Shown here one piece after another: positions 12,653-34,515 of a DNA stretch of 36,754 bases. The stretch lies in contig NZ_JTCM02000065.1 in the NCBI RefSeq assembly GCF_000817785.2, positions 1-36,754 on the forward strand, given 5' to 3'. The notes beneath the pieces are model-generated. The model saw nothing but the letters and a program-made list of their open reading frames with translations, searched no databases and was not told the origin of the DNA. This DNA comes from Hassallia byssoidea VB512170. Its GTDB lineage: Bacteria; Cyanobacteriota; Cyanobacteriia; Cyanobacteriales; Nostocaceae. The number at the start of each line of letters is the position of its first letter. The first letter of the stretch is position 1. Made by a program: the position numbers and the translations under genes.

Positions 12653-15355
12653 ATGAACAACCGACCAGAGTGGTTACAACCAAGTCGCTGCATTTACTCC
12701 AAACAGTACGGAACAATTCAAATTAACACAATTATTGGTGAAAATCTCCATTTTCGTAAAGGGAATATTAGTCAAGTTATCTTCAATTGGAGGGAGGAAA
12801 TAGAACAAGGAAATCTTACCCCGGTTCAAAATGCTCTATCTCCAAGAAGTTTAATTTATCAACAAATCGCATCTGAGCTAGAAGGTAGAAATAAACTTGC
12901 CCACTGCGATATAATTCCCGAACAACCGGCAAACTATCAACCAATACCAGAAAATGTTCATCCAGCAGTAAGTAAGGCTCTCACTCAATTAGGAATCAAT
13001 CAATTATACTCCCACCAAATTCAAGCATGGTCAGCATACAACCAATCATCAGATATCATTCTGGAAACTCCAACAAGTAGTGGGAAATCGATTTCATTCC
13101 TACTTCCAGTTATTCACGAATGTCTCAAAGGCAATTCATGTATCATCTTCTTCAACCTCAAAGCCCTTGCATTTGACCAAGAGGAGAAAATAAAGGAGTT
13201 TATCAATCTCCTACCAGAGCCTATCCGCCCCGCAATTCTAAATATTAATGGCGATACTCCATCCCAAGAACGCAAAAAGCTTTATACACATAAACCCTCA
13301 ATTATTTGCGTCACGCCCGATGTTTGGAATCACGAGCTTACCAACTACCAATTTGATAACTATAACTTCATTGAAACACTACGCAAAATTTCCATAATCA
13401 CGGTTGATGAGGCTCATTACTATGGTGGTATTTTTGGTAGCAATTTCGCTTTGCTAAACCGTCGCACTCAACTACTGATAAAACTAGCTGGAAGTGATAT
13501 ATCCAAATTACAATATATCTTTGCCTCAGCTACTATCAGCAATAGCCAAGAGATAGCCCAAAAAATTTCCAACCGTAAAAGCAATTTTACAGTAATTAGC
13601 CAAAGCGGTGCAAGAAAAGCTGAAACCACATTTATCAGTCTCAAACCCCAGAATAGTACTTTGTACGCAACTGCCGAAATAGCAGCTTCACTTGTCAGTA
13701 AAGATGTGGTGGGAATATGCTTTTGCGACAGCAGAGAAATGGTCAAAACCCTAACCCAAACAATCCGCAAAATATTAACTGAAAATGGGTTATTTAACCT
13801 CCAAAATAGTATTTCTGCATTTTACGCCAATTTGAAAAACAACCAAAGGAGGAAAATCATTGCAGATATCAAATCTGGGGAAATCAAATTTATCGTGTCA
13901 ACGTCAGCTCTCGAAGCGGGGTTAGACTTAGGCTGTATTGATGCCGTCCTGATTTGCAAGTATCCTGGCAGTATCCTATCCTTCCGGCAAAGGGCAGGTC
14001 GTGCTGGCAGAAAGGAAGAAGGGCTAGTTGTCTTCATACCTTCCAAACAGTCTATTTTAGACTCTTACTACTCGAAAAATCCCGAACGGTTGTTAACCGA
14101 CCCACCGGAGGTCATCAACTTCAACCCCAATTTTGAAAATCTACTCGCGTGCCATATTCTAGCTTGCTGCAAAGAGTCACGCCCGACAATCAACCAAATC
14201 AGCAAGCATTTCGGACAAACTGGACTTGCGATCGCAAACCAACTTCTTCAAGAAAACAAGCTCGTGTACAGCTTCAACAGCAAGCTAGCGTGCGCCCGCA
14301 ATTTAGGTTATGTACACGGCGATATCAAGATTAGGGGGAGCAAAAGCAACAATATCAACTATATCAACACCTCAACTGGGGAGGAGTTTGAACAAAGTGC
14401 GGTCAACACTGCTTTAAGAGAAGTATACCCTAATGCAATTTATACAGCCCAGGATTTTGATGGTAATCCAGTTTGGTATAAATCATCAGAGTTAAAAATC
14501 CAAGAAGGGCAAGCTTTCCTCAAGCCTATTGGACAAACAAATTTATTTACCCGCCCTCAAGGACTAATTAAATTTGAGGAAGTTAAAACTACTGGGGAAG
14601 CAAAGTCAATCAAACTGCCAATGGGAGTAATAAAACTTACTCATAAAATATGTAACATCTCTGAGTCAGTGTCCGGATACAGATTATACAATCGAGAGTC
14701 AAAATGGACTTGTCCAAATCAAGATTGCAGAAACCACAATCAATCTCTAGCAAGTAAACTACAAAACTGTTCCATATGCAACAGCGAACTCACAGATAAA
14801 GACATAATCCAACTAGTAGAAGAAGTATTATATAAGGAAGCTTTGACTATTAGCTGTTCTACCAGTTGTTTGCAAATTGAGATAGACAGACAAGCGAGAA
14901 ATTTCTTCAAGTCAAAAGTAGAGCAAATTAGGTTACCAATAAAGAATCAGAAGTACATTCCAAAAGAGGAGAGGGAGTTATTTGAATATAAAGAAACCGA
15001 CATTTGTATCCACAGTCTAGCACATCAACTGATGCTAGCATTACCACTAGTTGAACATGGTGCTAGTAGTAAAGATATTGACTTTATGCTTTATGAAGAA
15101 CCAACTCAGCCTAACTTAGTCGGCTACTTCTTCGATACAGTTGAGGGAGGAACCGGAATGTGCAATACACTATTTCAATATCTGGAAAAAGCCGTATCGA
15201 GGGCAAAGTTATTAGTGGAAAATTGTCCATGCAAGCACGGATGTTCAAACTGTACTGTTATTTACAGATGCCCCGATGACAATACAGCAATCTCCAAACA
15301 AGTTGGATTACTTATACTTCAAAATTTAATCCAACAAGAAGTACAAATAGTCTAA
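12653..15355 (+). CDS. MrfA/YprA-like DEAH helicase with DUF1998-type zinc cluster
   Basis: A 900-residue superfamily 2 helicase. Walker A ETPTSSGKS (K145), DEAH at 252-255 (TVDEAHYYGG), motif III SATIS, and motif VI FRQRAGRAGRK in the second RecA domain. The C-terminal half has a zinc-ribbon-like C-x4-C ... C-x2-C (WTCPNQDC ... NCSICNSE) and then a DUF1998-like region ending in C858-x-C860-x3-C864-x2-C867-x5-C873 (CPCKHGCSNC). This is the layout of MrfA/YprA, which works in a UvrA-independent excision repair path with the exonuclease MrfB; DISARM DrmB shares DUF1998 but not this helicase fusion. No MrfB-like gene is nearby. The gene is alone between a leader hairpin and a strong terminator. 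Family call strong; repair, defence or plasmid-maintenance role open. Confidence 0.8.
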   Translation: MNNRPEWLQPSRCIYSKQYGTIQINTIIGENLHFRKGNISQVIFNWREEIEQGNLTPVQNALSPRSLIYQQIASELEGRNKLAHCDIIPEQPANYQPIPENVHPAVSKALTQLGINQLYSHQIQAWSAYNQSSDIILETPTSSGKSISFLLPVIHECLKGNSCIIFFNLKALAFDQEEKIKEFINLLPEPIRPAILNINGDTPSQERKKLYTHKPSIICVTPDVWNHELTNYQFDNYNFIETLRKISIITVDEAHYYGGIFGSNFALLNRRTQLLIKLAGSDISKLQYIFASATISNSQEIAQKISNRKSNFTVISQSGARKAETTFISLKPQNSTLYATAEIAASLVSKDVVGICFCDSREMVKTLTQTIRKILTENGLFNLQNSISAFYANLKNNQRRKIIADIKSGEIKFIVSTSALEAGLDLGCIDAVLICKYPGSILSFRQRAGRAGRKEEGLVVFIPSKQSILDSYYSKNPERLLTDPPEVINFNPNFENLLACHILACCKESRPTINQISKHFGQTGLAIANQLLQENKLVYSFNSKLACARNLGYVHGDIKIRGSKSNNINYINTSTGEEFEQSAVNTALREVYPNAIYTAQDFDGNPVWYKSSELKIQEGQAFLKPIGQTNLFTRPQGLIKFEEVKTTGEAKSIKLPMGVIKLTHKICNISESVSGYRLYNRESKWTCPNQDCRNHNQSLASKLQNCSICNSELTDKDIIQLVEEVLYKEALTISCSTSCLQIEIDRQARNFFKSKVEQIRLPIKNQKYIPKEERELFEYKETDICIHSLAHQLMLALPLVEHGASSKDIDFMLYEEPTQPNLVGYFFDTVEGGTGMCNTLFQYLEKAVSRAKLLVENCPCKHGCSNCTVIYRCPDDNTAISKQVGLLILQNLIQQEVQIV

Positions 15356-16336: not shown

Positions 16337-17305
16337 ATGCACGCCCAGGCAGGTAAAATTATCTCGTCCCTGGAAACACTACCCGACAGATGGAGGGTTA
16401 TACCCACATTTGGCAAGCGACCTCTGGGGGGAAAAGAATGGCAGTATAAAACTTACTCACCCAAACAGCTACAAGCCGAACTCATTCGTACTAGATGCAA
16501 AATTTGGTCGGGGAAGAGGTATACACCTGCCACTGGGGTTGCTATTGTCTGCGGCGATAACCAACCCGAAGGACACATCGTCGCTATCGACTGCGACGGA
16601 TTCCGCGCCTGGGGTCAAATTCTAATCCTCAACAAAAAACTAGAAGAGGGTGAAATAGAGAAAATTTCTCCCCAAAAGTTATACGAAGGCGCACTTGCAT
16701 ACCTCCCGGCGACAGTCGCATTCACCTCTGGAGGTGAATACAAGCGCCAACTTCTATACCTAATTACTGAAAAATCATCAATCAAATCCAGCAAAATCTC
16801 AAATCTGGAGTTTAGAGGCAAAAATCATGCGTCTGTTTTACCTCCTTCCTACCACCCAGAAGGAAGATACTATCAGTGGGTTCCCGGTTGCAGTCCGCAA
16901 GAAAAACAAGTTGCGATCGCACCAGATTGGGTAATAGCCCAAATGCTATTAAAGCAGGAGAAGGAAAGGGTAATTCATTCTCCATCGAGTTCTCTCCAAG
17001 AAAAATCTAACCGCACACATGAGGCAAACAGATGCGTAAACTTATACCCCAACATTGAAACCAATATTCAAGCTGCACTTACATTCTTAGAAGTCATACA
17101 CCCCAGATTCGCTTCTGACTATACAACTTGGATTCAAGTTGGAATGGCACTTAAATCAGTCAGCCCTACCTTACTCGAAGCTTGGGATATATGGAGTCAG
17201 CTATCACCCAAATACAAACCAGGAGAATGTGCCTACAAATGGCAGTCTTTCCGCAGAACAGGCATTACCATTCGTACCCTTGCAAAATTTGCCAACCTCT
17301 CATGA
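16337..17305 (+). CDS. primase-polymerase (AEP superfamily) with PriCT-2 domain
   Basis: A 322-residue replication primase. The N-terminal prim-pol domain (about 15-205) has D85-x-D87 in AIDCDG, SGGEY at 131-135, and the third-site region FRGKNHASVLPPSYHPEG followed by YYQWVPG, as in the bifunctional DNA primase/polymerase family of plasmids and phages. The C-terminal 80 residues (SDYTTWIQVGMALKS ... WDIWSQLSPKYKPGE ... WQSFRRTGITIRTLAKFA) match PriCT-2. It would synthesise primers or short DNA tracts on this replicon. No helicase domain is fused, so a partner helicase must come from elsewhere. Its stop overlaps the next ATG (ATGA), tying it to the PRTRC genes. Confidence 0.82.
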   Translation: MHAQAGKIISSLETLPDRWRVIPTFGKRPLGGKEWQYKTYSPKQLQAELIRTRCKIWSGKRYTPATGVAIVCGDNQPEGHIVAIDCDGFRAWGQILILNKKLEEGEIEKISPQKLYEGALAYLPATVAFTSGGEYKRQLLYLITEKSSIKSSKISNLEFRGKNHASVLPPSYHPEGRYYQWVPGCSPQEKQVAIAPDWVIAQMLLKQEKERVIHSPSSSLQEKSNRTHEANRCVNLYPNIETNIQAALTFLEVIHPRFASDYTTWIQVGMALKSVSPTLLEAWDIWSQLSPKYKPGECAYKWQSFRRTGITIRTLAKFANLS

Positions 17306-17751
17306 ACAATCAAGAGCAAGAAAGTGTAACTAACTCTAAAGCAAGTTACAGTAGTGATTTGAATTCTAATAACAACAATAGCTTAGAAGATAGTGATGAA
17401 ACAGATGACTATGAAGATAACAGCAACAGTATATCAAACCCTAAAGTCTATCTAATAACCATCCAAATTTATCCAGACGAGCAACAGGCTATTTTCTCTA
17501 TTGGTATTAAAAATGCACCTCCCATTATCAAAAATGCTAGCTATCAGGAAATAACCCAACAACCCATCATTCAAGAAAGTATTCAAGAATTAGAGGTAGC
17601 CTTACCTAAAATTATTGAAGCTGCCGAAAAAAGAAAAATTACTATTAATCATATTAATCAATCTCAGGAGCGTAAACAAGTACAAAAACGAGAATTATCT
17701 AATAATTCTCATCCAACCGAGTCGGATAAACAACAACTTTCACTGTTCTAA
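17302..17751 (+). CDS. PRTRC E-like protein ending in a clamp-binding motif
   Basis: 149 residues, starting at the ATG that overlaps the primase stop. The first 45 residues are Ser/Asn/Asp/Glu-rich and disordered. A strand-turn-strand unit (KVYLITIQIYPDEQQAIFSIGI) follows, then APPIIKNASYQEITQQPII and a helix to about 115, and a charged tail ending SDKQQLSLF. Place and order (just before protein C) and the short beta unit fit PRTRC protein E, but similarity is weak. QLSLF at residues 145-149 is the consensus bacterial sliding-clamp-binding pentapeptide placed exactly at the C-terminus, as expected for a functional site. Confidence 0.5.
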   Translation: MNNQEQESVTNSKASYSSDLNSNNNNSLEDSDETDDYEDNSNSISNPKVYLITIQIYPDEQQAIFSIGIKNAPPIIKNASYQEITQQPIIQESIQELEVALPKIIEAAEKRKITINHINQSQERKQVQKRELSNNSHPTESDKQQLSLF

Positions 17752-21801: not shown

Positions 21802-22235
21802 ACTCCTCAAAAATTAAAGTCAAAAAAGTTGAACTTACCCCCGATGGTTGGACATTTAACATTTTATCTCCGCGAGTCGCCACCATTACCAGTCCTACGG
21901 GAGTAAGAAAAACTACCTACTTTGGGTTTAACTCTAAGGAAAAAGCCGAAAGCTTCCTTGTATGGATAACCCGTAAGGACAAATGCACTAAAGCTGTAAT
22001 TCGCTCAAGTGAACGCCTAAATACTCCTTGGGAAATAAAAGTCTGGGGTACAGAAGAATCACTCATTGTCAAATGCGCGCTCAAGGATCTACAAGAAAAT
22101 GCAACTATCGCTCTTCAAAATAATCCCAGAACATACAACCCCCGGCGAAATCTACACCTTCAATCTCAACACTCCCAACCCGAAGCAAGCAGCGAAACTG
22201 CAAGAACTTGCCACCTCGATGCAACAATCAATTGA
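21798..22235 (+). CDS. small protein overlapping the methyltransferase gene
   Basis: 145 residues, start coupled to the previous stop. Residues 1-100 look folded (VELTPDGWTFNILSPRVATITSPTG, KAESFLVWITRKDKCTKAVIR). The last 45 (from NNPRTYNP) are unlike the rest and translate the first 137 bases of the methyltransferase gene in another frame. Either this is a true long overlap or an ancestral stop was lost. Family not recognised. Confidence 0.45.
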   Translation: MNSSKIKVKKVELTPDGWTFNILSPRVATITSPTGVRKTTYFGFNSKEKAESFLVWITRKDKCTKAVIRSSERLNTPWEIKVWGTEESLIVKCALKDLQENATIALQNNPRTYNPRRNLHLQSQHSQPEASSETARTCHLDATIN

Positions 22236-23160
22236 CAACAAGCTTAATCCTGCCATAAACAAACAGCGGGCAACCAAACGCCGCAAAACAATCGCTCAAT
22301 CAATTATCGCCGAAGGAGTAGAACTACAAACAATCCAATCTTGGTTACTTGCTATAGCCCAAATGTGGTTTGTGGGAAATACCCCCGAAGTGCTGCGGGG
22401 CATCTCCCAAAAGTCCCAAGCAGAAGCCCTGTACAAAATCTCTCAAACAGCAAGGACTCTCGAAGAGGTAGAAGAAATTCTCTCCAATGAATATTATCAA
22501 GATAGGATAAAATCTCTCAAGCGTGCAAGTATTTGCACCGCAGGCGAGATTATGTCTGCGATAGCTGAAATTCAGAAAGTTGTTAAACCTGATGAGGTTG
22601 ATACTACTCAACAAGAGCTAAATCGGCTGGAGTTAAAAATCATTGGAATGAAGTCTGGAGACTTCTTCCCCAGCCCGCCTTTTGTTTGCGATCGCTTAAT
22701 TCAGTTAGCAGAAATTAATGAAAACTCTCGCATACTTGAACCCAGCGCTGGCTCTGGCTGCATTGCCGAATCCATACTCAAGAAATATCCTCAAGCCAAT
22801 TTAGAAGTAGTAGAGATTAACCCAACTCTACGTAGCATCCTCGAATTGAAAGGGTTTAACTTAGTAGGTAGAGATTTTCTAGGTTATACAGCCGAAAATT
22901 CCTACTCTCATATCATTATGAACCCTCCCTTCTCTCAATTAATTGAACATATTTACCATGCGTGGAAGTTAATTCATTCAGGAGGAATCCTAATAGCAAT
23001 AGTTCCAGAGTCGGTATTCTTCAACAAGAAATATAAGGATTTTAAAGAATGGCTAGAAAATTGGAATTTATATGATGAGTCTCTACCTAAAGATGCCTTT
23101 TTGCAATCAAATAACCCCACAAACGTAGCCACCCGCATCATCAAAATATACAAGCCTTAA
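22099..23160 (+). CDS. predicted N6-adenine-type methyltransferase with N-terminal clamp motif
   Basis: 353 residues from the ATG at 22099, supported by AAGGA upstream. Order: an N-terminal helical region (about 20-160) with a very basic patch KQRATKRRKT; motif X-like FFPSPPFVCDRLIQLAEI at 189-206; motif I EPSAGSG at 214-220; acidic VVEINP; motif IV NPPF at 275-278. NPPF and this order suggest amino methylation of adenine in DNA; an RNA target cannot be excluded. No target-recognition domain or restriction partner is visible, so it may be an orphan modifier. Residues 2-6 are QLSLF, the clamp-binding consensus, at the very N-terminus, which could place the enzyme on newly copied DNA. Confidence 0.72.
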   Translation: MQLSLFKIIPEHTTPGEIYTFNLNTPNPKQAAKLQELATSMQQSIDNKLNPAINKQRATKRRKTIAQSIIAEGVELQTIQSWLLAIAQMWFVGNTPEVLRGISQKSQAEALYKISQTARTLEEVEEILSNEYYQDRIKSLKRASICTAGEIMSAIAEIQKVVKPDEVDTTQQELNRLELKIIGMKSGDFFPSPPFVCDRLIQLAEINENSRILEPSAGSGCIAESILKKYPQANLEVVEINPTLRSILELKGFNLVGRDFLGYTAENSYSHIIMNPPFSQLIEHIYHAWKLIHSGGILIAIVPESVFFNKKYKDFKEWLENWNLYDESLPKDAFLQSNNPTNVATRIIKIYKP

Positions 23161-23766: not shown

Positions 23767-24684
23767 ATGGCTAAAAGTCAAGCCAATTTAAATGAAACTC
23801 AAACAAAAAATAATACTGCCGAAACTCATTCAACAACAATTCCTCAAGTAACAGAAAAAGATGAATTTTGTTCGCCTGAGTTTTTAGACCCAAATGCACG
23901 ACTCCCTCGCATCCAAGCACTTCGCGGTACTACCTCACAAACCTGCGGATATTTCATAAGTGTAGACCAAATGGCAAATGCTGGTTGGATGGACTTTGAC
24001 GACAAGCAACTCATAACCTACACATTTGAGTCTAGCGGTGCTGAAGAAAAGGGTATTCTTATCCAAAATCCCAGAATGTTGGTGTGTCCCAAATCGCCAG
24101 TGTTGGGATTTGATAGAAAGCAATCCCAAGAACCAAACTCGTCAACAATAATTTTAGGAAAGTACACTCTTGAAATGAAAGAAGACGAAAATATTGGCAA
24201 CCTACAGTATTTTCAAGTCTTCCTGCTAGACAAAAATAATCAACCCCTGCACCAAATTCCCCTAACTTATAAGGCAATGGGCGCAAATCAAGCATCCTTT
24301 GCCACTCATTGGCAAGAATTCTGCAAAGAATTAAATACTTGCCATTCAATTATTAATGGTATCCCAGCCAAACAAAAAAATACCCTATTTTATTCTCTAG
24401 GAATCTTTTGCTTCAAAACAGCTAGAGAACAAGCTGGAACCAAACAAAAAAGTTTTGCTTGCAAGGTAGTCGAACACGAAACCCCAACCCTAGAAACATG
24501 GCAAAACTACTTCGTAGGGTTTAAAGCCGACGTTAAGAATTACGTATGGGAATCCCTCGAACCCAACAAACCTATGGCAATTCCAGGTCTAGATAATTTA
24601 AATAATTTACTACTACCAGGTGCAGTAGAAACAGTGGGAATCTCACCAGCTAATTCATCCGAATTAGACAAATTGCCTTACTAA
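23767..24684 (+). CDS. DUF5895-like cyanobacterial protein
   Basis: 305 residues with a good ribosome site (AAGGA, spacing 5). After a 40-residue Thr/Asn-rich leader the core reads ARLPRIQALRG, CGYFISVDQMANAGW, TYTFESSGAEEKGILI, NPRMLVCPKSP and LPLTYKAMGANQASF-like text (here IPLTYKAMGANQASFATHWQ), the pattern I associate with DUF5895. The function of that family is not known to me; its position before the clamp gene hints at a DNA transaction, possibly single-strand binding or recombination. The C-terminal 60 residues are Pro/Asn-rich. Confidence 0.6.
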   Translation: MAKSQANLNETQTKNNTAETHSTTIPQVTEKDEFCSPEFLDPNARLPRIQALRGTTSQTCGYFISVDQMANAGWMDFDDKQLITYTFESSGAEEKGILIQNPRMLVCPKSPVLGFDRKQSQEPNSSTIILGKYTLEMKEDENIGNLQYFQVFLLDKNNQPLHQIPLTYKAMGANQASFATHWQEFCKELNTCHSIINGIPAKQKNTLFYSLGIFCFKTAREQAGTKQKSFACKVVEHETPTLETWQNYFVGFKADVKNYVWESLEPNKPMAIPGLDNLNNLLLPGAVETVGISPANSSELDKLPY

Positions 24685-24757: not shown

Positions 24758-26077
24758 ATGAAACTAATAATTACTCAATCTGTACTGGCGGAACTCTTAG
24801 AAACAGCCAAAAACGGCATATCCACAAAACCAATAGACCCTATACTCGGAAGCCTGTTAATCGAAGCCTCGGATTCGGGCAGACTTACCGTCATTGGTAC
24901 TGACCTGAATGTAAGTATCAAAACTACAGCGATAACTAATATTATACGCTCAGGTGTAGTTGCCTTAAACGCCAAATTACTAGTCGATACAGTTAACAAT
25001 CTAGGAAGCGGCGAACTGGATATTGAAGTAAGCGATCGCGCCTGTGTTATCAGCCACAGCACGGGAAAATGTCGCATTATAGGAGGAAATCCCGAAGATT
25101 TTCCAAGCATCCCAGAAACAGAAAACCCTACCGAAATCAGCATTCCTAGCAAGAAGCTACAAGCTGCCCTGGAAGCTTGTCTGTATTGTAGCAGCGCAGA
25201 CGAAACCAAACTCATCCTCACAGGTGTACATTTTCAGTTACAAGGAGAAAATTGGAGTTGCGCCAGCACCGACGGACACCGCCTTGCGTTTGTATCTTCC
25301 AAGCTGGAGCGAAACTACGAACCACTATCATTCACAGTCCCTAGAAGAAGCCTCACCGAGTTGGGAAAAATCTTGGCGACAACAGCCGAAAATAACAGTT
25401 GTACGCTCAAAGTTGCAAACAACACCATCCAGTTTATCTTGCCAAATGCCGAACTGACATCCAGGTTGTTAGAAGGAGAATTTCCTCGTATTAACAACCT
25501 TATACCTAGAAGCTTTGCTAACGAGCTAATTGTAGAGCGCAAGGGTATGGAAATTATTCTCAAAAGAATCAGCCATTTCGCAGAGAAAAAACACAAGATT
25601 GTCAAAATCCTGTGGGAGGTGAACGATCAACAAGCAACATTAATGACGGGTAATACTGATATTGGCGATGCGGTAGATTCTTTACTTATGAAAACCCAAA
25701 CCAGTATAGGGGAAAACATCGGTATTGGGGTAAACAGTAGCTATCTACAAGAAGCACTCAAACACATTTCAACCGATGAAATCCTATTCAGATTTAACAA
25801 ACCCCTCCAACCAGTCATCATTTCTCCTGTAGGTGGATTGCTCGACCAATTAACACTAATTATGCCCGTAGACGTGCAGGATTTCGATAAACCAGAAAAT
25901 CTTGCCACCACTTCAAAACCAGAAACTGAAACAGTAGATATTTCCGAACAAGAGGTATCTAATGAAACAACCAACATAGCAGAAACATCCCCGTCTGATA
26001 CAGCTAGCACCAGCAAGTCAAAATCCCGCAAGCGCAACAAGCAGGAAGCAAAACCAGTAGAAACAGCAGCCTTATAG
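24758..26077 (+). CDS. dnaN: DNA polymerase III beta sliding clamp with extra tail
   Basis: 439 residues. The three-fold clamp pattern is clear: N-terminal LGSLLIEASDSGRLTVIGTDLNVSI, middle ILTGVHFQLQGENWSCASTDGHRLAF, and a C-terminal PVIISPVGGLLDQLTLIMPV that ends the ring. This forms the dimeric ring that tethers polymerases and partners to DNA. Family members stop near 370-390 residues; here about 60 more follow, first acidic and Ser/Thr-rich, then basic (SKSKSRKRNKQEAKP). Such a tail is unusual because the clamp's partner-binding cleft lies near its C-terminus. As a plasmid-borne clamp it may have its own specificity, matched to the motifs in neighbouring proteins. Monocistronic between hairpins. 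Confidence 0.9.
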   Translation: MKLIITQSVLAELLETAKNGISTKPIDPILGSLLIEASDSGRLTVIGTDLNVSIKTTAITNIIRSGVVALNAKLLVDTVNNLGSGELDIEVSDRACVISHSTGKCRIIGGNPEDFPSIPETENPTEISIPSKKLQAALEACLYCSSADETKLILTGVHFQLQGENWSCASTDGHRLAFVSSKLERNYEPLSFTVPRRSLTELGKILATTAENNSCTLKVANNTIQFILPNAELTSRLLEGEFPRINNLIPRSFANELIVERKGMEIILKRISHFAEKKHKIVKILWEVNDQQATLMTGNTDIGDAVDSLLMKTQTSIGENIGIGVNSSYLQEALKHISTDEILFRFNKPLQPVIISPVGGLLDQLTLIMPVDVQDFDKPENLATTSKPETETVDISEQEVSNETTNIAETSPSDTASTSKSKSRKRNKQEAKPVETAAL

Positions 26078-26086
26078 ACCAACAAA

Positions 26087-26112
26087 TATAGCCAGCATTT
26101 TTACTGGCTATA
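26087..26112 (+). terminator. terminator between dnaN and dnaX
   Basis: TATAGCCAG pairs with CTGGCTATA (9 bp) around CATTTTTA, ten bases after the dnaN stop. Confidence 0.7.
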
Positions 26113-26147
26113 CACAAATCCATTTAGAAAATTTGATTTTCTCAAAT

Positions 26148-27437
26148 ATGTACACACCACTGCATCTCAAATATCGCCCCCAGCAACTTTCACAAATAGT
26201 TGGACAAGAACATATTGTACGCACCCTGAATAATGCGATCTTGCTCAAAAAGACTGCCCCAGCCTATGTATTTACCGGTCCCAAGGGTACGGGTAAAACG
26301 AGTACAGCGCGCATTCTCGCCAAATCTCTCAACTGTCAATCAACAGAAGAACCAACAACTGAACCCTGTGGCGAGTGCAATTCTTGTCAGACTATTTCCC
26401 ATTCCTCATCTCTCGATGTAACCGAACTTGATGCCGCCAGCCACTCTGGTGTAGATAACATCCGCGAGATAGTATCCAACCTTCAACTTAAACCAATCGA
26501 GGGTAAATACAAAATCCTAATTATAGATGAATGTCATGCCCTTTCCCACCAATCGTGGCAAGCATTACTCAAAACATTAGAACAACCACCAGTCCATGTT
26601 GTGTTCATCTTCTGTACCACCGAGGTACACAAAGTCCCAGAAACTATTACCTCCCGCTGCCAAAAGTTCGATTTTAGAAGGGTTACCCTCTCATTAGTTG
26701 TAAATTACCTAGAAAAAGTTGCCCACCAGGAAGGTATAAATATCAATCCGCTAGCATTAACAGCCGTCGCCAAAGCAAACAAGGGACACTTGCGCGACTC
26801 ACTCAAACTTTTAGACCAACTAACCTTGCTGGGAGAAGAGGAAATCACTCCCAATTGGGTATGGGAACTATCGGGTATCATCCCCGAATACGATTTAGTC
26901 ACTTTCTTTGAAAATATCACTCTTAGAGAAATTACAGGTAATTTAGGCATTCTCCAAGATTGGATTGAATGCGGCAAGCACCCAATCACTGTTCACACAA
27001 GCCTTGTCAGCTTTCTAAAAGACCTGCTTGTGTGCAAAACCAACCCCGATGGCAGAAATATTACCCAACTGGAAGAGGAAACCTGGAATTCCCTTACAAC
27101 AATCTCCAAATCGTGGAGCGTTAACCACATCCACAGTGCGATCGCACTCCTGATGGCACGTCAAAATCTCATGCGAGATGAAAACGCGCACTTGTGGATG
27201 GAAGCTACCATTATCGAGATAGTTCAAACCACAAAGAGTAGTTCCCAAACTCAACCCTGGAAGGATTGGAAAACTGCCCAAGACGCAATTAACTGGGCAA
27301 AGGAACAGTTACCCCACTTATCGCAGACACAGTTACAAGAACACTGGCAAAAGCTTACACCCATTAATGGAAAGAAAGCCTTAGTGTGGGTGGAAGTCAT
27401 TCAAAAACTGCAACAAACACAACTGCAACAAGCTTAG
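26148..27437 (+). CDS. dnaX: DNA polymerase III clamp-loader subunit gamma (dnaX, no tau domain)
   Basis: 429 residues from the ATG of MYTPLHLKYRPQ (an upstream TTG would add five residues). Walker A GPKGTGKT at 44-51; zinc module C64 ... C74-x2-C77-x2-C80; DECH at 127-130; sensor SRC at 169-171 (ITSRCQKFDFRR). This AAA+ subunit forms the ATPase motor of the loader together with delta and delta-prime, also encoded here. Length equals the gamma form; the tau C-terminal domains that bind DnaB and PolIII alpha are absent, which fits a system whose polymerase is not PolIII alpha. A hairpin follows the stop. Confidence 0.9.
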   Translation: MYTPLHLKYRPQQLSQIVGQEHIVRTLNNAILLKKTAPAYVFTGPKGTGKTSTARILAKSLNCQSTEEPTTEPCGECNSCQTISHSSSLDVTELDAASHSGVDNIREIVSNLQLKPIEGKYKILIIDECHALSHQSWQALLKTLEQPPVHVVFIFCTTEVHKVPETITSRCQKFDFRRVTLSLVVNYLEKVAHQEGININPLALTAVAKANKGHLRDSLKLLDQLTLLGEEEITPNWVWELSGIIPEYDLVTFFENITLREITGNLGILQDWIECGKHPITVHTSLVSFLKDLLVCKTNPDGRNITQLEEETWNSLTTISKSWSVNHIHSAIALLMARQNLMRDENAHLWMEATIIEIVQTTKSSSQTQPWKDWKTAQDAINWAKEQLPHLSQTQLQEHWQKLTPINGKKALVWVEVIQKLQQTQLQQA

Positions 27438-27443
27438 AATAGC

Positions 27444-27467
27444 AGCTCTCCCTTATTAGGGAGAGTT
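27444..27467 (+). terminator. terminator after dnaX
   Basis: CTCTCCC-TTATTA-GGGAGAG, extendable by A-T and G·U pairs to 27444-27467, six bases after the stop. Confidence 0.65.
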
Positions 27468-27499
27468 AGTTATTAGTTAAAATAAAACCGCAGCTATAG

Positions 27500-27539
27500 C
27501 TAACGCTTTTAATATTATACAACTTACAATTCTTTGTAA
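27500..27539 (+). promoter_or_regulatory. CTAACGCT octamer with hairpin before a small gene
   Basis: CTAACGCT (27500-27507) precedes a short stem TTACAA-TTCT-TTGTAA (27524-27539), then AATAC and the ATG at 27545. It is the third close match to the octamer-hairpin-start layout at 12612 and 15460. Confidence 0.4.
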
Positions 27540-27544
27540 AATAC

Positions 27545-27775
27545 ATGGAATATCGCAAACTATTTCAGCAACAATTAAAAACTTTGGAAGAATTAGGAGA
27601 ACAAATTGAAAATGATGCGGGAGGACAAATCGAAGAAAGTCCTAAAAATGAACATGGGATGTTTATTAACCAAGAACTAGCAAATGATACTTTCGCTGCT
27701 GTCCTAGCTGCACAAGAAATCAAAGCCATAGTCCAACGATTTCAAGCATACCTGAACAACAGCCAACAAGCATAG
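27545..27775 (+). CDS. small helical protein before the polymerase
   Basis: 76 residues, mostly helical: FQQQLKTLEELGEQIEND, and FAAVLAAQEIKAIVQRFQAYL, joined by an acidic linker. This looks like a helical hairpin or short coiled coil able to dimerise. Family unknown. It lies between dnaX and the polymerase, each side bounded by a hairpin, so it may be a small replisome accessory or regulator; that is a guess from place only. Confidence 0.5.
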   Translation: MEYRKLFQQQLKTLEELGEQIENDAGGQIEESPKNEHGMFINQELANDTFAAVLAAQEIKAIVQRFQAYLNNSQQA

Positions 27776-27780
27776 CATAA

Positions 27781-27823
27781 GTTGAAACCTCTTTTAGTTT
27801 TGACAATTAAAAGAGGTTTCAAC
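27781..27823 (+). promoter_or_regulatory. 16-bp perfect stem upstream of the polymerase gene
   Basis: GTTGAAACCTCTTTTA pairs without mismatch with TAAAAGAGGTTTCAAC around an 11-base loop, five bases after the small gene's stop and 76 bases before the polymerase ATG. The loop-side U's and lack of a trailing T-run make it ambiguous between terminator and protein-binding dyad. Confidence 0.6.
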
Positions 27824-27899
27824 AGTCAATACCCACAAGCATCGCAATATATCCTGAACGCGAAAAATATTTTATCACAATTATAAAATTCTCTAATTA

Positions 27900-29714
27900 A
27901 TGAGTTATAACCACAGGGATTTTGTCAAAAAGTCTAGGGGTATAATCATTGTCGATGAAGACAAACTAGACATCTATTGGAAAGACCCCACTCCAATTAA
28001 ACCCTGGCAACCGCAAGTACAACTCAAGCCATACCAGGAACTTTCACAGTTATTTGTCGATATTGAAACAGCAGGTATAGACCCAATTGAAAATCGCATT
28101 TATGCCATCGGGTGTATGGATGAAATGGGATATCCTACTGTTTTTATGAATATTTCAGAAGCACAAACTATCACAGACTTTTTCAATCACCTAAAGAAGA
28201 AAAATCCAGATGTAATTTTCACCTACAACGGGATGGAATTTGACATTCCATTCATTATCACTAGATCCAACCTGCATGGCATAAAACACCCATTTAAAAT
28301 TGCATCCAAACCTCGGGCTATCCGAACTGCCAAGGTACGCGGCGAACCGCTAAAAATTCGGGAGGTATTTGTCAAAAATAGCCAGCACGTAGACGTTTAT
28401 ATCTGCGTTCTCAGGTGGGATTTTGTCACCAAAAAGCTAACCAACGGAAGGTCGCTCAAAAAGGTTGTGTTGGACATGGGACTGCGCCAAAACACCAGAC
28501 TGGTTCTTTCCTATGAGGAAATTTTAGCTTGTTGGAAAGATGGTCTAAACAGTAGGGGGTGGAAACGTTTAAAAGAGTATCTTATCTACGACCTCGAAGA
28601 CACCCAGTTAATTGCTAACAGGCTCGTACCCTCATACTATTATGAAGCGCCGATCGTACCGGGAATGAACCTCCAACAGTTAGCACTAGCTGGTAATGGT
28701 ACCAAGTGGGAGCGAATATTTGAGCATCACTACCAAGGGATAAAACCAAAACCCGATCGCAAGTACAAGTTCCAGGGAGGCATGGCTTACTCTATCCCTG
28801 GACTGTATAGAAAGGTCGGATACGCAGATATTAGCTCAATGCACCCTTGGGCAATGCTAGACAAGGGTATTTGCTCAATTAAAGATACAAAACGTATCGG
28901 GCTAAGTATCCTGCAATATTTGGTGAATGAAAAATCTAGACTGGAACAACTTGCATCTACTGGAAATATTGCTGCCAAGGAGAAGAGAGAATCTGTCAAA
29001 GTTCTAGCTAACTCCGAGTTTGGCTTCTTCGGCACATCTGAACTCGCCTTCAACGATATGGAGGCTGCGGCTTTGGTGACAGCCTACAGCAGAAGGGTAC
29101 TCAAACTCATGATTGAAATTATCACTTATGAAGGGGGTACTCCCGTGGAAGTTGACACTGACGGGGTATTTTTCACCCACCCCAACCCAGAAGAGATACA
29201 TAGTTTGCTTCAATCTCAACTGCCTGAAGGGATAACCGTCAAACTAGAGTTTATCGCTTCGGCGATGTTTATCCCGGAAAGAGGAACCAAAAACTACCTT
29301 TTATGGCTTCCGGATGGGAAAATCATTACCAAGGGGAACTGGCGCAATCGCGATCGCTCGCAACTAGAGAAAGAGTTTTCCATTCAGTATTTAACTCTCC
29401 TAATCCAAGATATATCAGCAGCAGAAGAGTATTACGCCCACATTTCATCCCATATTTCATCAAGGGAATATCCAAAAGAAAACTTGTGCATTACTCGTAG
29501 AATTAAAGAGGGTGAAAAAGAACTTCTCAAACTCGGAAAACCCGGAGATGTAGTGACTTATTATTACAGCATTCTGGGTGTAACAGACATCAACAGTTTA
29601 CAAAAGTATTCATCACAGTATTACATCAAATTACTCGCCCAAAAACGAGTAGAAATCCTGCAAATTGCAAACCCTCAAATGCTAAACAGTGCTAAACAAT
29701 TGACTCTTTTCTGA
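27900..29714 (+). CDS. compact family B DNA polymerase with proofreading exonuclease and C-terminal clamp motif
   Basis: 604 residues. Exonuclease: Exo I FVDIETAG (D54, E56), Exo II YNGMEFDIPF (N110, D115), Exo III YDLED (Y230, D234). Polymerase: motif A YADISSMHPWAM (D310), motif B KVLANSEFGFFG (K367, N371), motif C EVDTDGVFF (D419, D421), then GTKNYLLW as the KxY element. All catalytic residues expected for both activities are present, so it should be an active, proofreading replicase. It is short for the family (typically 750 or more), with a reduced N-terminal domain and thumb, and has no obvious protein-priming TPR insertions, so it probably extends ordinary primers. It ends QLTLF (600-604), a consensus clamp-binding peptide. 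It starts a run polymerase, unknown gene, holA, holB with 2- to 4-base junctions. Confidence 0.9.
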   Translation: MSYNHRDFVKKSRGIIIVDEDKLDIYWKDPTPIKPWQPQVQLKPYQELSQLFVDIETAGIDPIENRIYAIGCMDEMGYPTVFMNISEAQTITDFFNHLKKKNPDVIFTYNGMEFDIPFIITRSNLHGIKHPFKIASKPRAIRTAKVRGEPLKIREVFVKNSQHVDVYICVLRWDFVTKKLTNGRSLKKVVLDMGLRQNTRLVLSYEEILACWKDGLNSRGWKRLKEYLIYDLEDTQLIANRLVPSYYYEAPIVPGMNLQQLALAGNGTKWERIFEHHYQGIKPKPDRKYKFQGGMAYSIPGLYRKVGYADISSMHPWAMLDKGICSIKDTKRIGLSILQYLVNEKSRLEQLASTGNIAAKEKRESVKVLANSEFGFFGTSELAFNDMEAAALVTAYSRRVLKLMIEIITYEGGTPVEVDTDGVFFTHPNPEEIHSLLQSQLPEGITVKLEFIASAMFIPERGTKNYLLWLPDGKIITKGNWRNRDRSQLEKEFSIQYLTLLIQDISAAEEYYAHISSHISSREYPKENLCITRRIKEGEKELLKLGKPGDVVTYYYSILGVTDINSLQKYSSQYYIKLLAQKRVEILQIANPQMLNSAKQLTLF

Positions 29715-29716
29715 CA

Positions 29717-30502
29717 ATGGCTAAAAAATTATCACTGCTCAACAAAAATCAACGCAAGTGGTTAAATAACTTCCTTGAAGGAAAGCCCTACGCCAGATTA
29801 ACCAATGTCTATGACTCATTAGACGGCGACCGAGTTGTTGAAATTGTATGGTGGGAACATAGTATACCTACAGTTATTGACAGTCATACACTCATTCAAG
29901 GAAGTATATCTTACAAGGTAAGAATCAAACTCCGAAAGTTTGGCGACCCCAGACAAACAGCCAATTTCTCCTACGAGATTATCCCAGCCCAAAAACAAAC
30001 CTTACCCTACCGACTCAAAGAACAGCTATCACTTGAACTTCCACAAAGCTACTTAATACCCACTCCCAAAAACCCTGTAGTTGTCAAATCTAGGAAGACT
30101 AAACAGAAAATATTAGTCGCCGGTATAACCCAACAAACCCTACCTCTTGAGGGTATAACTGCCCAACTAAACGAGATAAATCTTAAAGATGGTGGTGTAC
30201 CCCTATCCGAACAGGAACTACTTCTAGAAACCACACCGCACATTGATTTAGATACTGGCACTCGATACAAACTTCCCAGTGCCATTATCAAAATTCTCAA
30301 CGATAAAAAAGCAAATTTTCGGGAGTGGGAATCAGCCATCTCGCTATATCAGGTAGCTGGTTCATCTGCGTTGTTGCAATATCTAAACGAGTTAGACGGC
30401 TGGCGCAAATACCACGGTACTCAGCAAGTTATAAATTCAGTTCAAGATGTCAACCAAAGTAAAGTTGATATACAATCGGTTGGCAACAAGGGAATCCTAT
30501 AA
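29717..30502 (+). CDS. unknown protein between polymerase and delta
   Basis: 261 residues, two bases after the polymerase stop, so surely co-translated. The N-terminal 90 residues look like a beta-rich domain (NVYDSLDGDRVVEIVWWEH, ISYKVRIKLRKF). A QLSLEL at 103-108, after a basic segment, resembles the hexapeptide clamp motif (as in Hda QLSLPL). A Lys-rich linker and a helical C-terminal domain (LPSAIIKILNDKKANFREWESAISLYQ) follow. I do not recognise the family; a polymerase accessory role is likely from position. Confidence 0.6.
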   Translation: MAKKLSLLNKNQRKWLNNFLEGKPYARLTNVYDSLDGDRVVEIVWWEHSIPTVIDSHTLIQGSISYKVRIKLRKFGDPRQTANFSYEIIPAQKQTLPYRLKEQLSLELPQSYLIPTPKNPVVVKSRKTKQKILVAGITQQTLPLEGITAQLNEINLKDGGVPLSEQELLLETTPHIDLDTGTRYKLPSAIIKILNDKKANFREWESAISLYQVAGSSALLQYLNELDGWRKYHGTQQVINSVQDVNQSKVDIQSVGNKGIL

Positions 30503-30552
30503 TTCGAGTTGATAACAAAGCAGCAGCAATACCCCAGGCGATAACAGAGGTA

Positions 30553-31350
30553 ATGACAGTTCCCTTGGGGGCAGGTGGAAAGATTGTCCACATTAGAGAT
30601 GGGACAATATTCAATAAATGTTCGGATGAAATAATTTCCTCACTCTTAAAAAATCTTGACAAAGTACCTACTCCAAACCTACTGTTAATTACCTCACTTT
30701 GGAAACCTGATAGTAGAAGCAAAGTCGTCAAAGCACTACTCAAACACGCCGAAGTTGAAGAATTTCCTCTCATTCCGAGTTGGGATAAACAAGGAATAGA
30801 AAAACTAATTCAAGCAGCAGTAAAAACCCATTCCTTAGAGCTTGTCCCCGCCGCCACTACCTATCTAGTGGAGGCAATTGGAAACAATACTGCACGGCTC
30901 GATAGCGAATTAACCAAACTTGCTATCTACGCTCAGGGGGAAAAATTGGAGTTAGGAGATGTTCAGTCACTTATAAGCAACAACAATATCAGTTGTACCG
31001 AACTCGCCCACGCCATTAAAAATAGTAGAGCCGATACAGCAGGGCAAATACTCCACCGCCTACTAGTTGAGGACGAACACCCTCTTAAAATAGTCGCCAC
31101 CCTCATAAGTTACTTCCGCACTTGGTTAATTACGAAAGCTGGGGTAGAAGAAAAACTGCCCGACAATAAAATCTCAACACTCGCCGAACTCAGCAACCCC
31201 AAAAGGCTGTACTTCCTCAAAAAAGAAGTCGAAGCTGTAAGCGTCGTTAAACTCAAACAAATACTCGTAGCACTAATCCAACTTGAAGGTGAACTCAAGT
31301 CTGGCATTGACAACTTCACCCCCACCATCATCAAAATCTGCACCCTATGA
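30553..31350 (+). CDS. holA: DNA polymerase III clamp-loader subunit delta, short at the N-terminus
   Basis: 265 residues from the ATG at 30553: MTVPLGAGGKIVHIRDG, then WDKQGIEKLIQAAVKTHSLEL, LVEAIGNNTARLDSELTKLA and NISCTELAHAIKNS ... LKIVATLISYFRTWL follow the delta-subunit pattern through to the collar domain. Delta opens the clamp ring with its first domain. The usual N-terminal 50-60 residues are missing. The frame is open upstream to 30469 and the codons just before the ATG still read like delta (DNKAAAIPQAITEV), so translation may begin earlier at a rare start such as ATT (30502) or by coupling to the preceding stop. It overlaps holB by 4 bases. Confidence 0.75.
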   Translation: MTVPLGAGGKIVHIRDGTIFNKCSDEIISSLLKNLDKVPTPNLLLITSLWKPDSRSKVVKALLKHAEVEEFPLIPSWDKQGIEKLIQAAVKTHSLELVPAATTYLVEAIGNNTARLDSELTKLAIYAQGEKLELGDVQSLISNNNISCTELAHAIKNSRADTAGQILHRLLVEDEHPLKIVATLISYFRTWLITKAGVEEKLPDNKISTLAELSNPKRLYFLKKEVEAVSVVKLKQILVALIQLEGELKSGIDNFTPTIIKICTL

Positions 31351-32159
31351 ACAACCTCTTTAACGAGATAGTCGGGCAGCATACCGCAAAACTAATCTTA
31401 AATAATGCGATTGCCCAAAATCAAATTTCAAGCGCCTACCTATTTACCAGCACCGTCGAAGGGGTAGGTAAAACCAAAACTGCCCGACTATTTGCTGACT
31501 ACATCTGTAGCACCACAGATATGCTGGAAGTGCGTCCGCAAGAAGACAATTCTACTATCGGAGTAGAACAAATACGGGAAACGATCGCCTTCCTTTCAAC
31601 CTCTCCCATTGAAGGCGATCGCAAAATAGTAATTATCCACGACTGCGACAGGATCACGCTAAACGCCGCCAACGCCTTACTTAAAATCTTAGAGACACCA
31701 GGAAAAGGAATATTTATCCTCATTACATCCCAAGCCCAGAATATACTGCCTACCATAAAAAGTAGGTGTCAAATAATTCCATTTGCTCAACTACCTATTG
31801 ATGAACTAAAAACTATTCTGGAAAACCATAAAATCTACCTCCATCAAGACATACTCGAACTTTGTTTAGGCAGTCCTGGTCGTGCGATCGCATTCCACAG
31901 TCTGTTAAATTCCATACCAGAAAGCATACTCGACCAACTGCAAGTACCTCCCAAAAATGTAATTACAGCCCTAGAAGTGAGTAATTGGACAAGTAAACAG
32001 GATAAATCAACTCAAGCTTTATTACTCACCTACTTAGAGACAAGATGGTGGGAAAAGACTAAAAAGACGGGATTGCTCGCTTTCTTTACGACAGCAAGAG
32101 AACAATTTCAATGTCACGTATCACCTAGAAACGTATGGGATAACCTACTCTTGCGCTAA
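31347..32159 (+). CDS. holB: DNA polymerase III clamp-loader subunit delta-prime
   Basis: 270 residues, ATG overlapping the holA stop. NNLFNEIVGQHTAKLILNNAI and AYLFTSTVEGVGKTKTARLFA are typical; SRC at 139-141 supplies the arginine finger to gamma. Helices after 150 match the collar region. Unlike E. coli delta-prime, the P-loop keeps GKT, but the Walker B strand reads VIIHDCDR without the catalytic Glu, so ATP binding without hydrolysis is possible. It completes the loader (gamma, delta, delta-prime). A terminator follows. Confidence 0.85.
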   Translation: MNNLFNEIVGQHTAKLILNNAIAQNQISSAYLFTSTVEGVGKTKTARLFADYICSTTDMLEVRPQEDNSTIGVEQIRETIAFLSTSPIEGDRKIVIIHDCDRITLNAANALLKILETPGKGIFILITSQAQNILPTIKSRCQIIPFAQLPIDELKTILENHKIYLHQDILELCLGSPGRAIAFHSLLNSIPESILDQLQVPPKNVITALEVSNWTSKQDKSTQALLLTYLETRWWEKTKKTGLLAFFTTAREQFQCHVSPRNVWDNLLLR

Positions 32160-32182
32160 AAAAATCCCCAAAAGATGAAGGC

Positions 32183-32214
32183 AGCCGCCAGCTAGTAATA
32201 ATTAGCTGACGGCT
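32183..32214 (+). terminator. terminator after holB
   Basis: AGCCGCCAGCTA pairs with TAGCTGACGGCT (12 positions, one mismatch) around GTAATAAT, followed by TTTTTAT that runs into the next leader. Confidence 0.8.
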
Positions 32215-32222
32215 TTTTATAT

Positions 32223-32227
32223 GGAGG
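32223..32227 (+). promoter_or_regulatory. strong Shine-Dalgarno fixing the start at 32233
   Basis: GGAGG lies 5 bases before the ATG at 32233. It overlaps an in-frame ATG at 32221 that would otherwise be taken as the start. Confidence 0.7.
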
Positions 32228-32232
32228 TTAAA

Positions 32233-32883
32233 ATGCAACAACAAAGCCTGTTTGATATTGAACAAACAATCAAAAATAGTAAATCAAAAAGAGAAAAAAT
32301 ACTAACTCCTAACATTCAAAAAATGCTTAAGATTCTAGCCAGCATGGGGATGGATAGAAAGGTATTCGCCTGTTTGTTAGAACTAGCAGAGGTGGATGCA
32401 CAATTAATTAAATATCTAGCTGGTCCCACAATCACTGGTGGGCGAGAATGGAAGGATGCTATTCCCAACTGGGTGTGGCAAGCAATCGCAATCGATAGAC
32501 TAGATACAATCCTAGAGGAGGTAGATAAAGGTGAGGTAGGGAAACTTGCTACGCCAAGCGAAGTGCTTGCTGTAATGATGCCAATTACTTTTGAAGTTCC
32601 ACTATCTTGGGAGTGGACAAACGTATATTTTTGGGCTTCACATGCTACTCTCTCCAAACACAAACCATTTCCAAATTATGATTACGATAAACTTTGGGAA
32701 AGTATTGGTATAACGCCAATCAATTACAAACAAATTCAGCATGATTATGAAACTCTCGCCACCGATATCCGCGCTTATGTGGTAAAGGGTGCAAGCAACG
32801 AATGGGGTAAAAAGCTTAAGCAAAAACCCCTCTTCAACAATCAATCTACAGAGGAAAATAATCCCCAATTATCACTTTTTTAA
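32233..32883 (+). CDS. unknown protein with clamp-binding motifs at both ends
   Basis: 216 residues starting MQQQSLFDIEQ and ending NNPQLSLF. QQSLF (3-7) and QLSLF (212-216) both resemble the clamp pentapeptide QL[SD]LF. Between them: a basic helix (KNSKSKREKILTPNIQKM), helices to about 80, and a Trp-rich domain (REWKDAIPNWVWQAIAIDRLD, VPLSWEWTNVYFWAS). No catalytic motif recognised. It lies alone between the holB terminator and a strong terminator shared with a convergent gene. A bivalent clamp binder that bridges protomers or rings is a reasonable hypothesis. Confidence 0.6.
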   Translation: MQQQSLFDIEQTIKNSKSKREKILTPNIQKMLKILASMGMDRKVFACLLELAEVDAQLIKYLAGPTITGGREWKDAIPNWVWQAIAIDRLDTILEEVDKGEVGKLATPSEVLAVMMPITFEVPLSWEWTNVYFWASHATLSKHKPFPNYDYDKLWESIGITPINYKQIQHDYETLATDIRAYVVKGASNEWGKKLKQKPLFNNQSTEENNPQLSLF

Positions 32884-32940
32884 ACAACCAACAGCTATCA
32901 TGCAGTTCTAGTTGTGCAACTATAAATCAAGCAAAGTATT

Positions 32941-32970: not shown

Positions 32971-32972
32971 TC

Positions 32973-33962: not shown

Positions 33963-34131
33963 AAATAATTAATAAATCGATACATATATATTTCCCGTAT
34001 CTATAACTTTTCTACCAATAGCCAGATATTAGAAAAATTGTGGATATCCCCCATCCAGTCGCAAACAACCACAAACAAGACAGGTGCTTACGCAAAAAGG
34101 ATTTGAAGTATTAGGAAATTCAACAAATTTT

Positions 34132-34515
34132 ATGAGCGAGTATCTCAATCGCATCACAATTGTCGGACGCTGCGGTCAAGACCCGGAAATCCGTTATTTT
34201 GAAAGTGGCTCGGTAAAAGCAAGTATCTCGGTTGCAGTTAGACCTCCTTACAAAAGTGAAAATGCATTATGGTTCGACCTTATCGCCTGGGGTTCAACCG
34301 CCGAGGTAATTGCAAATTACGTTAAAAAGGGAACACAAATCGCTATAGTAGGTGAATTTGGATTCGATAGGTGGACAGACAAAAATTCAGGTGCAATGCG
34401 GTCTAAACCAATAGTAACGGTTCAAACAATCGAATTATTAGGTTCTCCAAAGAACGAGGATAAATCCTATAAAGAAGAAAAACAAACCGCAAGCATTGCT
34501 AACGCAAATTACTAA
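34132..34515 (+). CDS. ssb: single-stranded DNA-binding protein without the usual acidic tip
   Basis: 127 residues from MSEYLNRITIVGRCGQDPEIRYF; the further 16 residues possible upstream are not SSB-like. The OB fold is complete: VKASISVAVRPPY, LWFDLIAWGSTAEVIANYVKKGTQIAIVGEF and VTVQTIELLG. After the OB fold only about 20 residues remain, ending SIANANY. The conserved acidic tip (DDDIPF) that recruits partners is missing, so this SSB should bind DNA and tetramerise but not dock standard SSB-interacting proteins. See the next gene. Confidence 0.88.
   Translation: MSEYLNRITIVGRCGQDPEIRYFESGSVKASISVAVRPPYKSENALWFDLIAWGSTAEVIANYVKKGTQIAIVGEFGFDRWTDKNSGAMRSKPIVTVQTIELLGSPKNEDKSYKEEKQTASIANANY

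Follow-up and report, generated by a model that had tools for sequence, protein, structure and literature searches.

The window analyzed here is the whole 36,754-bp contig NZ_JTCM02000065.1 of Hassallia byssoidea VB512170, one of the 219 contigs of a draft genome. Between positions 24758 and 32159 its plus strand carries a dense run of replication genes, the cassette with which this work is concerned. The sliding-clamp gene dnaN and the clamp-loader gene dnaX are 55 bp apart, polB for a family B DNA polymerase starts 462 bp beyond, and the gene for a 261-residue protein, holA and holB then follow closely or overlap. An earlier reading of the letters alone (the sequence-only reading) had named this set, with a gamma-length dnaX, a proofreading PolB, and a PrimPol and a single-stranded DNA-binding protein (SSB) nearby, and our analyses found the open reading frames (ORFs) in place and matched by profile models (Table 1). 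The same reading had called the cassette plasmid-borne. Circular plasmids share its gene order, from which we infer that the contig belongs to a plasmid, although the window itself is only a draft contig.

In PolB, the exonuclease domain is recognized above the model cut-off (PF03104, 3.5e-12) and the polymerase domain just under it (PF00136, 2.3e-4; 20.5 versus 23 bits). The three exonuclease motifs and the polymerase motifs A, B and C have their catalytic carboxylates intact in the alignment, and by these motifs (Exo I–III, A/B/C) the enzyme is a family B polymerase with proofreading. Full-length cassette PolBs comprise 27 distinct proteins, or 14 clusters at 90% identity; some lie on draft contigs or on a chromosome-size record and are not proven plasmid proteins. 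Thirteen of the 14 clusters have a glutamate two residues before the DTD of motif C (E417 in the window), which is not found in one Gloeothece protein (L027) or in two Nostoc-type phages. A conserved motif C glutamate is described for the PolB group G3 in the parts of PMC7544198 covered, although that group is also where Nostoc phage PolBs are placed. An AlphaFold2 model of PolB, built from 10 closely related rows, had a mean predicted local distance difference test score of 36.8, and no conclusion was drawn from it.

The clamp has all three DNA_pol3_beta domains above cut-off (PF00712, PF02767 and PF02768). DnaX, delta and delta prime each exceed a model cut-off, with delta about 52 residues short. 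At 434 residues, against the 635-residue open frame of a third dnaX copy in the same genome, the window's DnaX was correctly called gamma length. In plasmid clamps of the PolB type the C-terminus extends into a long tail (25871–26077 in the window) that turns basic close to its end; none of the listed clamps of the PolA type ends in this way.

A feature absent from the sequence-only reading is the C-terminus of PolB, where the peptide QLTLF would provide the physical link between polymerase and clamp. It is of the type of QL(S/D)LF, given as the consensus of beta-clamp binders in the parts of PMC11139829 covered, where a C-terminal clamp-binding motif is also described for Pol II and Pol IV. 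A C-terminal QL[ST][LI]F occurs in all 14 cassette PolB clusters, whose mutual identity goes down to 35%; in Calothrix PCC 7716 two residues follow the peptide. This conservation supports the prediction that the window PolB binds the clamp through its tail. The count leaves out repeated copies of a locus or sequence, one polB split by an insertion sequence (L025), one cut by a contig end (L023), ORFs of at most 450 residues (L007–L010 and others) and four relatives counted apart; the 3' polB pieces L008, L009, L023 and L025 also end in QLSLF. Among the relatives counted apart, the PolBs of two Nostoc-type phages, one Salinibacter phage and one Deinococcus deserti plasmid, the looser pattern Q[LMIV]x[LMI][FL] occurs nowhere. 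No dnaN was found on the records of phages A-1(L) and Dfl-JY23, the Salinibacter phage (a partial genome) or the D. deserti plasmid, and a scan of viral contigs with exact peptide patterns found no relative.

Three further window proteins bear a strict terminal peptide, namely the small protein after the primase, the methyltransferase-like protein and the 220-residue protein after holB. In all, a terminal QL[SDT][LI]F is present in 4 of 25 window proteins, where 5000 composition shuffles gave 0.0018 on average and never more than 1; the 25 were our own choice from the ORFs at 5624–35011, and the pattern was picked after some of them had been seen. Among six-frame ORFs of at least 90 residues, 23 of 561 from PolB plasmid loci end or begin in this way, against 1 of 272 from other loader plasmid loci and none of 259 from phage and Deinococcus loci. 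For the 220-residue protein, 19 distinct sequences are listed with identities as low as 36%, and 18 of them, all except L018, have QLSLF near the C-terminus. All nine distinct sequences listed for the small protein after the primase, the window's included, have a C-terminal QL[ST]LF, the others being 31–60% identical to the window's, and full-length orthologs of the methyltransferase-like protein with at least 60% identity share an N-terminal QLSL[FL]. In Calothrix plasmids holB is followed by a gene some 5.2 kb long (L031:24733-29934 and L039:24474-29669), whose product ends in QLSLFDL or QLSLFEL and is possibly another clamp binder.

The sequence-only reading had staked its case on two points, that no Pol III alpha gene lies on the same replicon and that the polymerase recurs beside loader genes. 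Because the window's replicon is represented only by a 36.8-kb contig, we examined both in relatives, where both held. A tblastn search with PolB retrieved 27 plasmid records, 18 cyanobacterial and nine from Deinococcus. When plasmids are ranked by their match to the window's clamp, these same 18 cyanobacterial records take the first 18 places, and in every one of them dnaN and holA are at most about 7 kb away from polB. The 43 records listed with a holA match include none from Deinococcus, and the one Deinococcus polB locus examined had neither clamp nor loader neighbors, nor dnaN anywhere on the record. Of 386 genomes drawn from the phylum, the window's among them, 19 including it match PolB at E ≤ 0.001, many through short fragments or weakly; of the intact polB genes outside the window's genome, those in genomes G172, G345, G318 and G055 have clamp or loader genes on the same stretch. 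Shared descent reduces the independence of all these co-occurrence counts and of the peptide counts above.

Eleven of the 18 PolB plasmids, all complete records, were searched whole in six frames, together with 11 cyanobacterial plasmids that carry holA and no PolB. All 11 PolB plasmids have dnaN. Pol III alpha (PF07733) was found on none of the 22 plasmids and on none of three phage records; the same model did detect it in 10 of 14 control genomes and gave single matches on the D. deserti plasmid and in the window's genome, there on contig C201 and not on the window. The idea that PolB supplements a Pol III alpha encoded by the plasmid thus finds no support in the 11 PolB plasmids searched.

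Table 1. Features of the window, with positions counted from its first letter and the evidence for each assignment
Feature	Position	Strand	Evidence
SF2 (superfamily 2) DEAD/DEAH helicase with MZB domain, 900 residues, upstream of primase	12653..15355	+	PF00270, PF00271, PF09369; order same in relatives
PrimPol/PriCT-2 primase, 322 residues	16337..17305	+	PF09250 8.3e-21, PF08707 6.2e-22
Small protein after primase, end QLSLF	17302..17751	+	Start set to agree with relatives
DNA methyltransferase-like protein, start MQLSLF	22099..23160	+	PF05175 1.8e-6; start set to agree with orthologs
DUF5895 protein, immediately upstream of dnaN	23767..24684	+	PF19247 5.4e-50; same position in relatives
dnaN, beta sliding clamp, 439 residues, basic stretch ends C-terminal tail	24758..26077	+	TIGR00663 6.7e-75, over cut-off
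dnaX, gamma-length clamp-loader ATPase, 434 residues	26133..27437	+	TIGR02397 6.6e-127, over cut-off
Recombination-exchanged stretch, Scytonema-like within Brasilonema-like cassette	27758..29557 (left edge somewhere after 27158)	+	Identity in 300-bp windows; synonymous divergence
polB, compact family B polymerase with 3'-5' exonuclease, 604 residues	27900..29714	+	PF03104, PF00136
PolB C-terminal candidate clamp-binding peptide QLTLF (residues 600-604)	29697..29711	+	QL(S/D)LF type; conserved
Conserved 261-residue protein, no family match, 2 bp after polB	29717..30502	+	Near polB in most relatives
holA, clamp-loader delta, about 52 N-terminal residues gone	30553..31350	+	TIGR01128 2.5e-42, starting at profile position 53
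holB, clamp-loader delta prime, 270 residues	31347..32159	+	PRK07399 1.6e-73, over cut-off
220-residue protein after holB, end QLSLF, QQQSLF near start	32221..32883	+	C-termini of relatives
SSB	34084..34515	+	PF00436 9.1e-22

We hence assume that the cassette probably encodes a DNA polymerase holoenzyme of the element's own, able to copy plasmid DNA without host Pol III alpha. Gamma, delta and delta prime would form a loader of bacterial type that places the plasmid's own beta clamp on primed DNA, and PolB would dock on this clamp through its C-terminal QLTLF and thereby become processive. PrimPol might make the primers and SSB coat the single strands. Plasmid DNA could thus be copied at a fork, or during conversion of a transferred single strand to duplex, and host Pol III alpha would not be needed, which fits the gamma length of DnaX. 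What the analyses show directly is the gene content, the co-occurrence, the intact catalytic motifs, the conserved peptide and the missing Pol III alpha in the relatives tested; assembly, processivity, priming and the replicative role are read from these, with PolB as the presumed copier of the plasmid. The helicase at such a fork might be either host DnaB or the conserved SF2 helicase.

Related plasmids appear to have coupled the same kind of clamp and loader to a family A polymerase. PF00476 is present on 8 of the 11 delta-bearing plasmids without PolB and on none of the 11 PolB plasmids; PF00136, at E ≤ 0.1, is found on all 11 PolB plasmids (seven above cut-off) and on none of the others. 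That PolA and PolB replace each other on these 22 plasmids and do not co-occur is as expected of one main polymerase. In Allocoleopsis the PolA gene lies between dnaX and holA, and in others it is farther away. Seven of the eight loader-plasmid PolAs carry Q[LMI][SP]L[FL] in an inserted loop between the exonuclease and polymerase parts. The PolA used as alignment reference, encoded on contig C147 in the window's genome and taken as chromosomal, lacks this loop peptide. In small PolA plasmids outside the delta records the strict peptide was found in none of three, one having QLTLV at that place. Furthermore, Cyanobacterium and Geminocystis plasmids of 12–27 kb (L087, L088 and L089) have PolA and a DnaB-like helicase protein side by side, and the pair may be a minimal system for PolA-based replication.

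Among the rows listed, 41 cyanobacterial plasmids carry delta: 18 have PolB, 14 PolA, none both and nine neither. The PolA rows are the best 50 of 151 records, and the nine may drop in number; four of them are the same plasmid in Leptolyngbya boryana strains, and in NC_014533, one of the 14, PolA is in two pieces and delta is partial. The clamp gene dnaN is on 10 of the 11 loader plasmids without PolB, with none on Gloeothece pP742401 and a match under the cut-off in L. boryana. From this material we may draw a wider picture, which we consider about as probable as its opposite, namely that clamp and loader form a chassis free of Pol III on large cyanobacterial plasmids, into which the unrelated PolB and PolA plug through independently gained peptides, running beside host Pol III and with polymerase genes exchanged between plasmids.

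Several observations weigh against an element-encoded replicase. Of the nine delta-bearing plasmids with neither polymerase in the rows listed, three were searched whole and showed neither, one of them lacking dnaN as well, and another of the nine's records, Gloeothece verrucosa Cy782202, keeps the order DUF5895, dnaN, dnaX, holA, holB without polB. The clamp on such plasmids could serve host Pol III or another enzyme. On plasmid C of Trichormus variabilis ATCC 29413, ISAva7 interrupts polB and leaves an exonuclease ORF of 265 residues and a polymerase ORF of 311 residues, the latter reaching from just before motif A through the peptide, and strain 0441 shows the same two pieces. As this plasmid persists, PolB must either work in two parts or not be needed there. 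Genome G025 has an intact PolB with the peptide on a 69-kb contig, of which 53.9 kb were searched without finding a clamp or loader gene; its contig C97 has a cassette without polB in the 18 kb searched, and another clamp lies on contig C18. The PolA of a Stanieria plasmid lacks the loop peptide, DnaB_C was found on none of the 11 PolB plasmids and above cut-off on three of the 11 others, and the window's own delta is truncated. Of the sequence-only claim that a family B replicase is served by Pol III-type factors, the partnership is thus supported by co-occurrence, by the missing Pol III alpha in relatives and by the clamp peptide, whereas the role at the fork keeps the standing of a proposal in view of the split polB, the loader plasmids in which neither polymerase was found and the short delta.

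Some of these observations would suit a PolB that acts as the plasmid's Pol II-like repair or bypass polymerase while host Pol III replicates the fork and can also use the plasmid clamp. Escherichia coli Pol II is a family B polymerase with a repair role. It binds beta by a C-terminal motif (PMC11139829, parts covered), and both the persistence of the T. variabilis plasmid with its split polB and the nine delta-bearing plasmids without PolA or PolB of their own in the rows listed agree with such a role. A repair polymerase should, however, have no need of its own clamp, loader, primase and SSB, and the mutual replacement of PolA and PolB and a plasmid DnaX of 434 residues, against the 635-residue frame elsewhere in the genome, also speak against it. 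We regard this reading as quite unlikely.

Alternatively, the set might be the establishment module of a conjugative plasmid, converting the single strand that has entered a new host to double-stranded DNA until the host's own replication takes charge, a reading that overlaps with the holoenzyme proposal. These often conjugative elements could use the set solely for transfer-associated synthesis, which would count against a replicase. In agreement with this, 15 of the 27 PolB plasmid records are typed conjugative, an ORF at the window start is presumably VirD4-like, and primase, SSB and methyltransferase lie in the same run. On the other hand, eight of the 27 records are typed non-mobilizable and four mobilizable, Deinococcus included, and a whole clamp loader seems costly for a single round of synthesis. 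An exclusive role in establishment thus appears unlikely.

Across 15 cassettes, pairwise PolB identities track those of dnaN (Spearman 0.87, 105 pairs), holA (0.89, 91 pairs) and dnaX (0.71, 105 pairs), and hence the set travels together; the holB correlation (0.47) was set aside, as the best holB match in some loci is dnaX. The window is a local exception. In 300-bp windows its dnaN, dnaX, polB end, holA, holB and next gene downstream are 79–93% identical to Brasilonema DNA. Positions 27758–29557 are 80–92% identical to Scytonema and only 66–78% to Brasilonema, and synonymous divergence (dS) from Brasilonema is 1.70 for polB against 0.39 for dnaN. The polymerase body was swapped between plasmids with clamps only about 54% identical in their residues. 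The polB end with the clamp peptide is still of Brasilonema type, and a swapped body on a kept peptide end would fit the docking peptide as the main contact. The ratio of nonsynonymous to synonymous divergence (dN/dS) against Brasilonema is 0.11–0.27 in the cassette. A phage as donor of the whole set is unlikely, since A-1(L) and Dfl-JY23 (two of seven Nostoc-type phage records), the partial Salinibacter phage genome and the D. deserti plasmid all lack dnaN. Several further cyanobacterial contigs, a few as large as a chromosome, carry decayed or fragmentary polB copies (L086 and most of L094–L116), which suggests past integrations.

The holA gene named by the sequence-only reading is present and also truncated at its 5' end. 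Uncut delta relatives have 309–338 residues against the 265 of the window ORF, whose alignment starts at residue 49–74 of these relatives, at 53–55 in most and at 53 in the two closest. Some 430 bp of Brasilonema sequence, including the delta start, correspond to 84 bp in the window; either the deletion is real and recent, or the draft was misassembled here. The window's genome has three clamps and a single Pol III alpha match, and a second cassette on contig C219 (182,483 bp) comprises dnaN, dnaX, polB (31807–33621, its product 71% identical to the window PolB), holA with a 345-residue frame, holB and SSB. The window cassette might hence be decaying, its short delta non-functional and the cell served by the C219 cassette, which is compatible with the other readings. 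The remaining cassette genes are nevertheless open, the remaining delta has a dN/dS of 0.24, within the range of its neighbors, and the draft assembly may be in error here, so that we hold decay to be rather unlikely.

In full or in part, plasmid relatives repeat the order helicase, PrimPol, ubiquitin-like operon, methyltransferase, DUF5895, dnaN, dnaX, polB, the 261-residue protein, holA, holB, SSB and ParAB. The 261-residue protein had no match in Pfam, NCBIfam or PHROG. Between primase and dnaN, at 18924–21023, the operon encodes a Prokaryotic E2 family D protein (PF14460, 8.8e-41), a JAB protein (PF14464) and a ThiF/E1 protein (PF00899), in the same place as in many relatives, and it thus neighbors a sliding-clamp gene. 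At the C-terminus of SSB an acidic tip is usual. The window SSB ends in NANY (NANF in most relatives), and the protein encoded next (34496–35011) ends in SEVPAF, with SDIPF or EPPF in relatives, resembling such a tip.

Bacterial forks are taught as a family C polymerase with a beta clamp. If the holoenzyme proposal holds, a bacterial clamp need not be paired with Pol III alpha, and the cassette may be a replication system partly independent of the chromosome's. It would offer a compact natural system for testing what makes a polymerase replicative and would bear on the evolutionary swapping of replicases. For large cyanobacterial plasmids, CyRepA and CyRepX are described as initiators (PMC10899382, in the parts covered). 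Among the best literature matches listed we found no report joining a cyanobacterial plasmid clamp and loader with PolB or PolA, which is no proof of novelty, as subscription journals are mostly outside this coverage.

The PolB lineage itself was reported in 2016 from cyanophages A-1/N-1 and from plasmids of Cyanothece PCC 7424, Nostoc PCC 7120 and Anabaena variabilis ATCC 29413 (PMC4916379), two of these plasmids being among the records examined here; in the main text of that paper neither "clamp" nor "DNA polymerase III" occurs. Unlike the plasmid cassettes, the two phage PolBs tested have no C-terminal peptide, and A-1(L) and Dfl-JY23 no clamp gene. Nostoc and Salinibacter phage PolBs, relatives of the plasmid enzyme, have been placed in G3, a large bacterial group, for which no clamp or loader partner is named in the parts of PMC7544198 covered. 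With these reports, the view of the sequence-only reading that bacterial family B polymerases are usually repair or phage enzymes proves too narrow. Pol II of E. coli is a chromosomal repair enzyme that works with host factors and is not known to have a clamp and loader of its own. It likewise binds the beta clamp by a C-terminal peptide (PMC11139829, parts covered). Phage T4 likewise combines a family B polymerase with an element-encoded clamp and loader (gp43, gp45 and gp44/62), but its clamp is trimeric and its loader nearer to eukaryotic ones (PMC3331839, parts covered), whereas the window encodes a bacterial beta with gamma, delta and delta prime. Since a beta-binding Pol II and the T4 arrangement exist, the cassette is not a new category. 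What is new is the family A polymerase on loader plasmids, with a clamp-like peptide in its loop. One example, Allocoleopsis pMIC7113.01, has dnaX, holA, holB and SSB near a polymerase with such a peptide, and dnaN elsewhere on the plasmid; its polymerase is of family A, not B, and clamp and loader look like a chassis that accepts unrelated polymerases.

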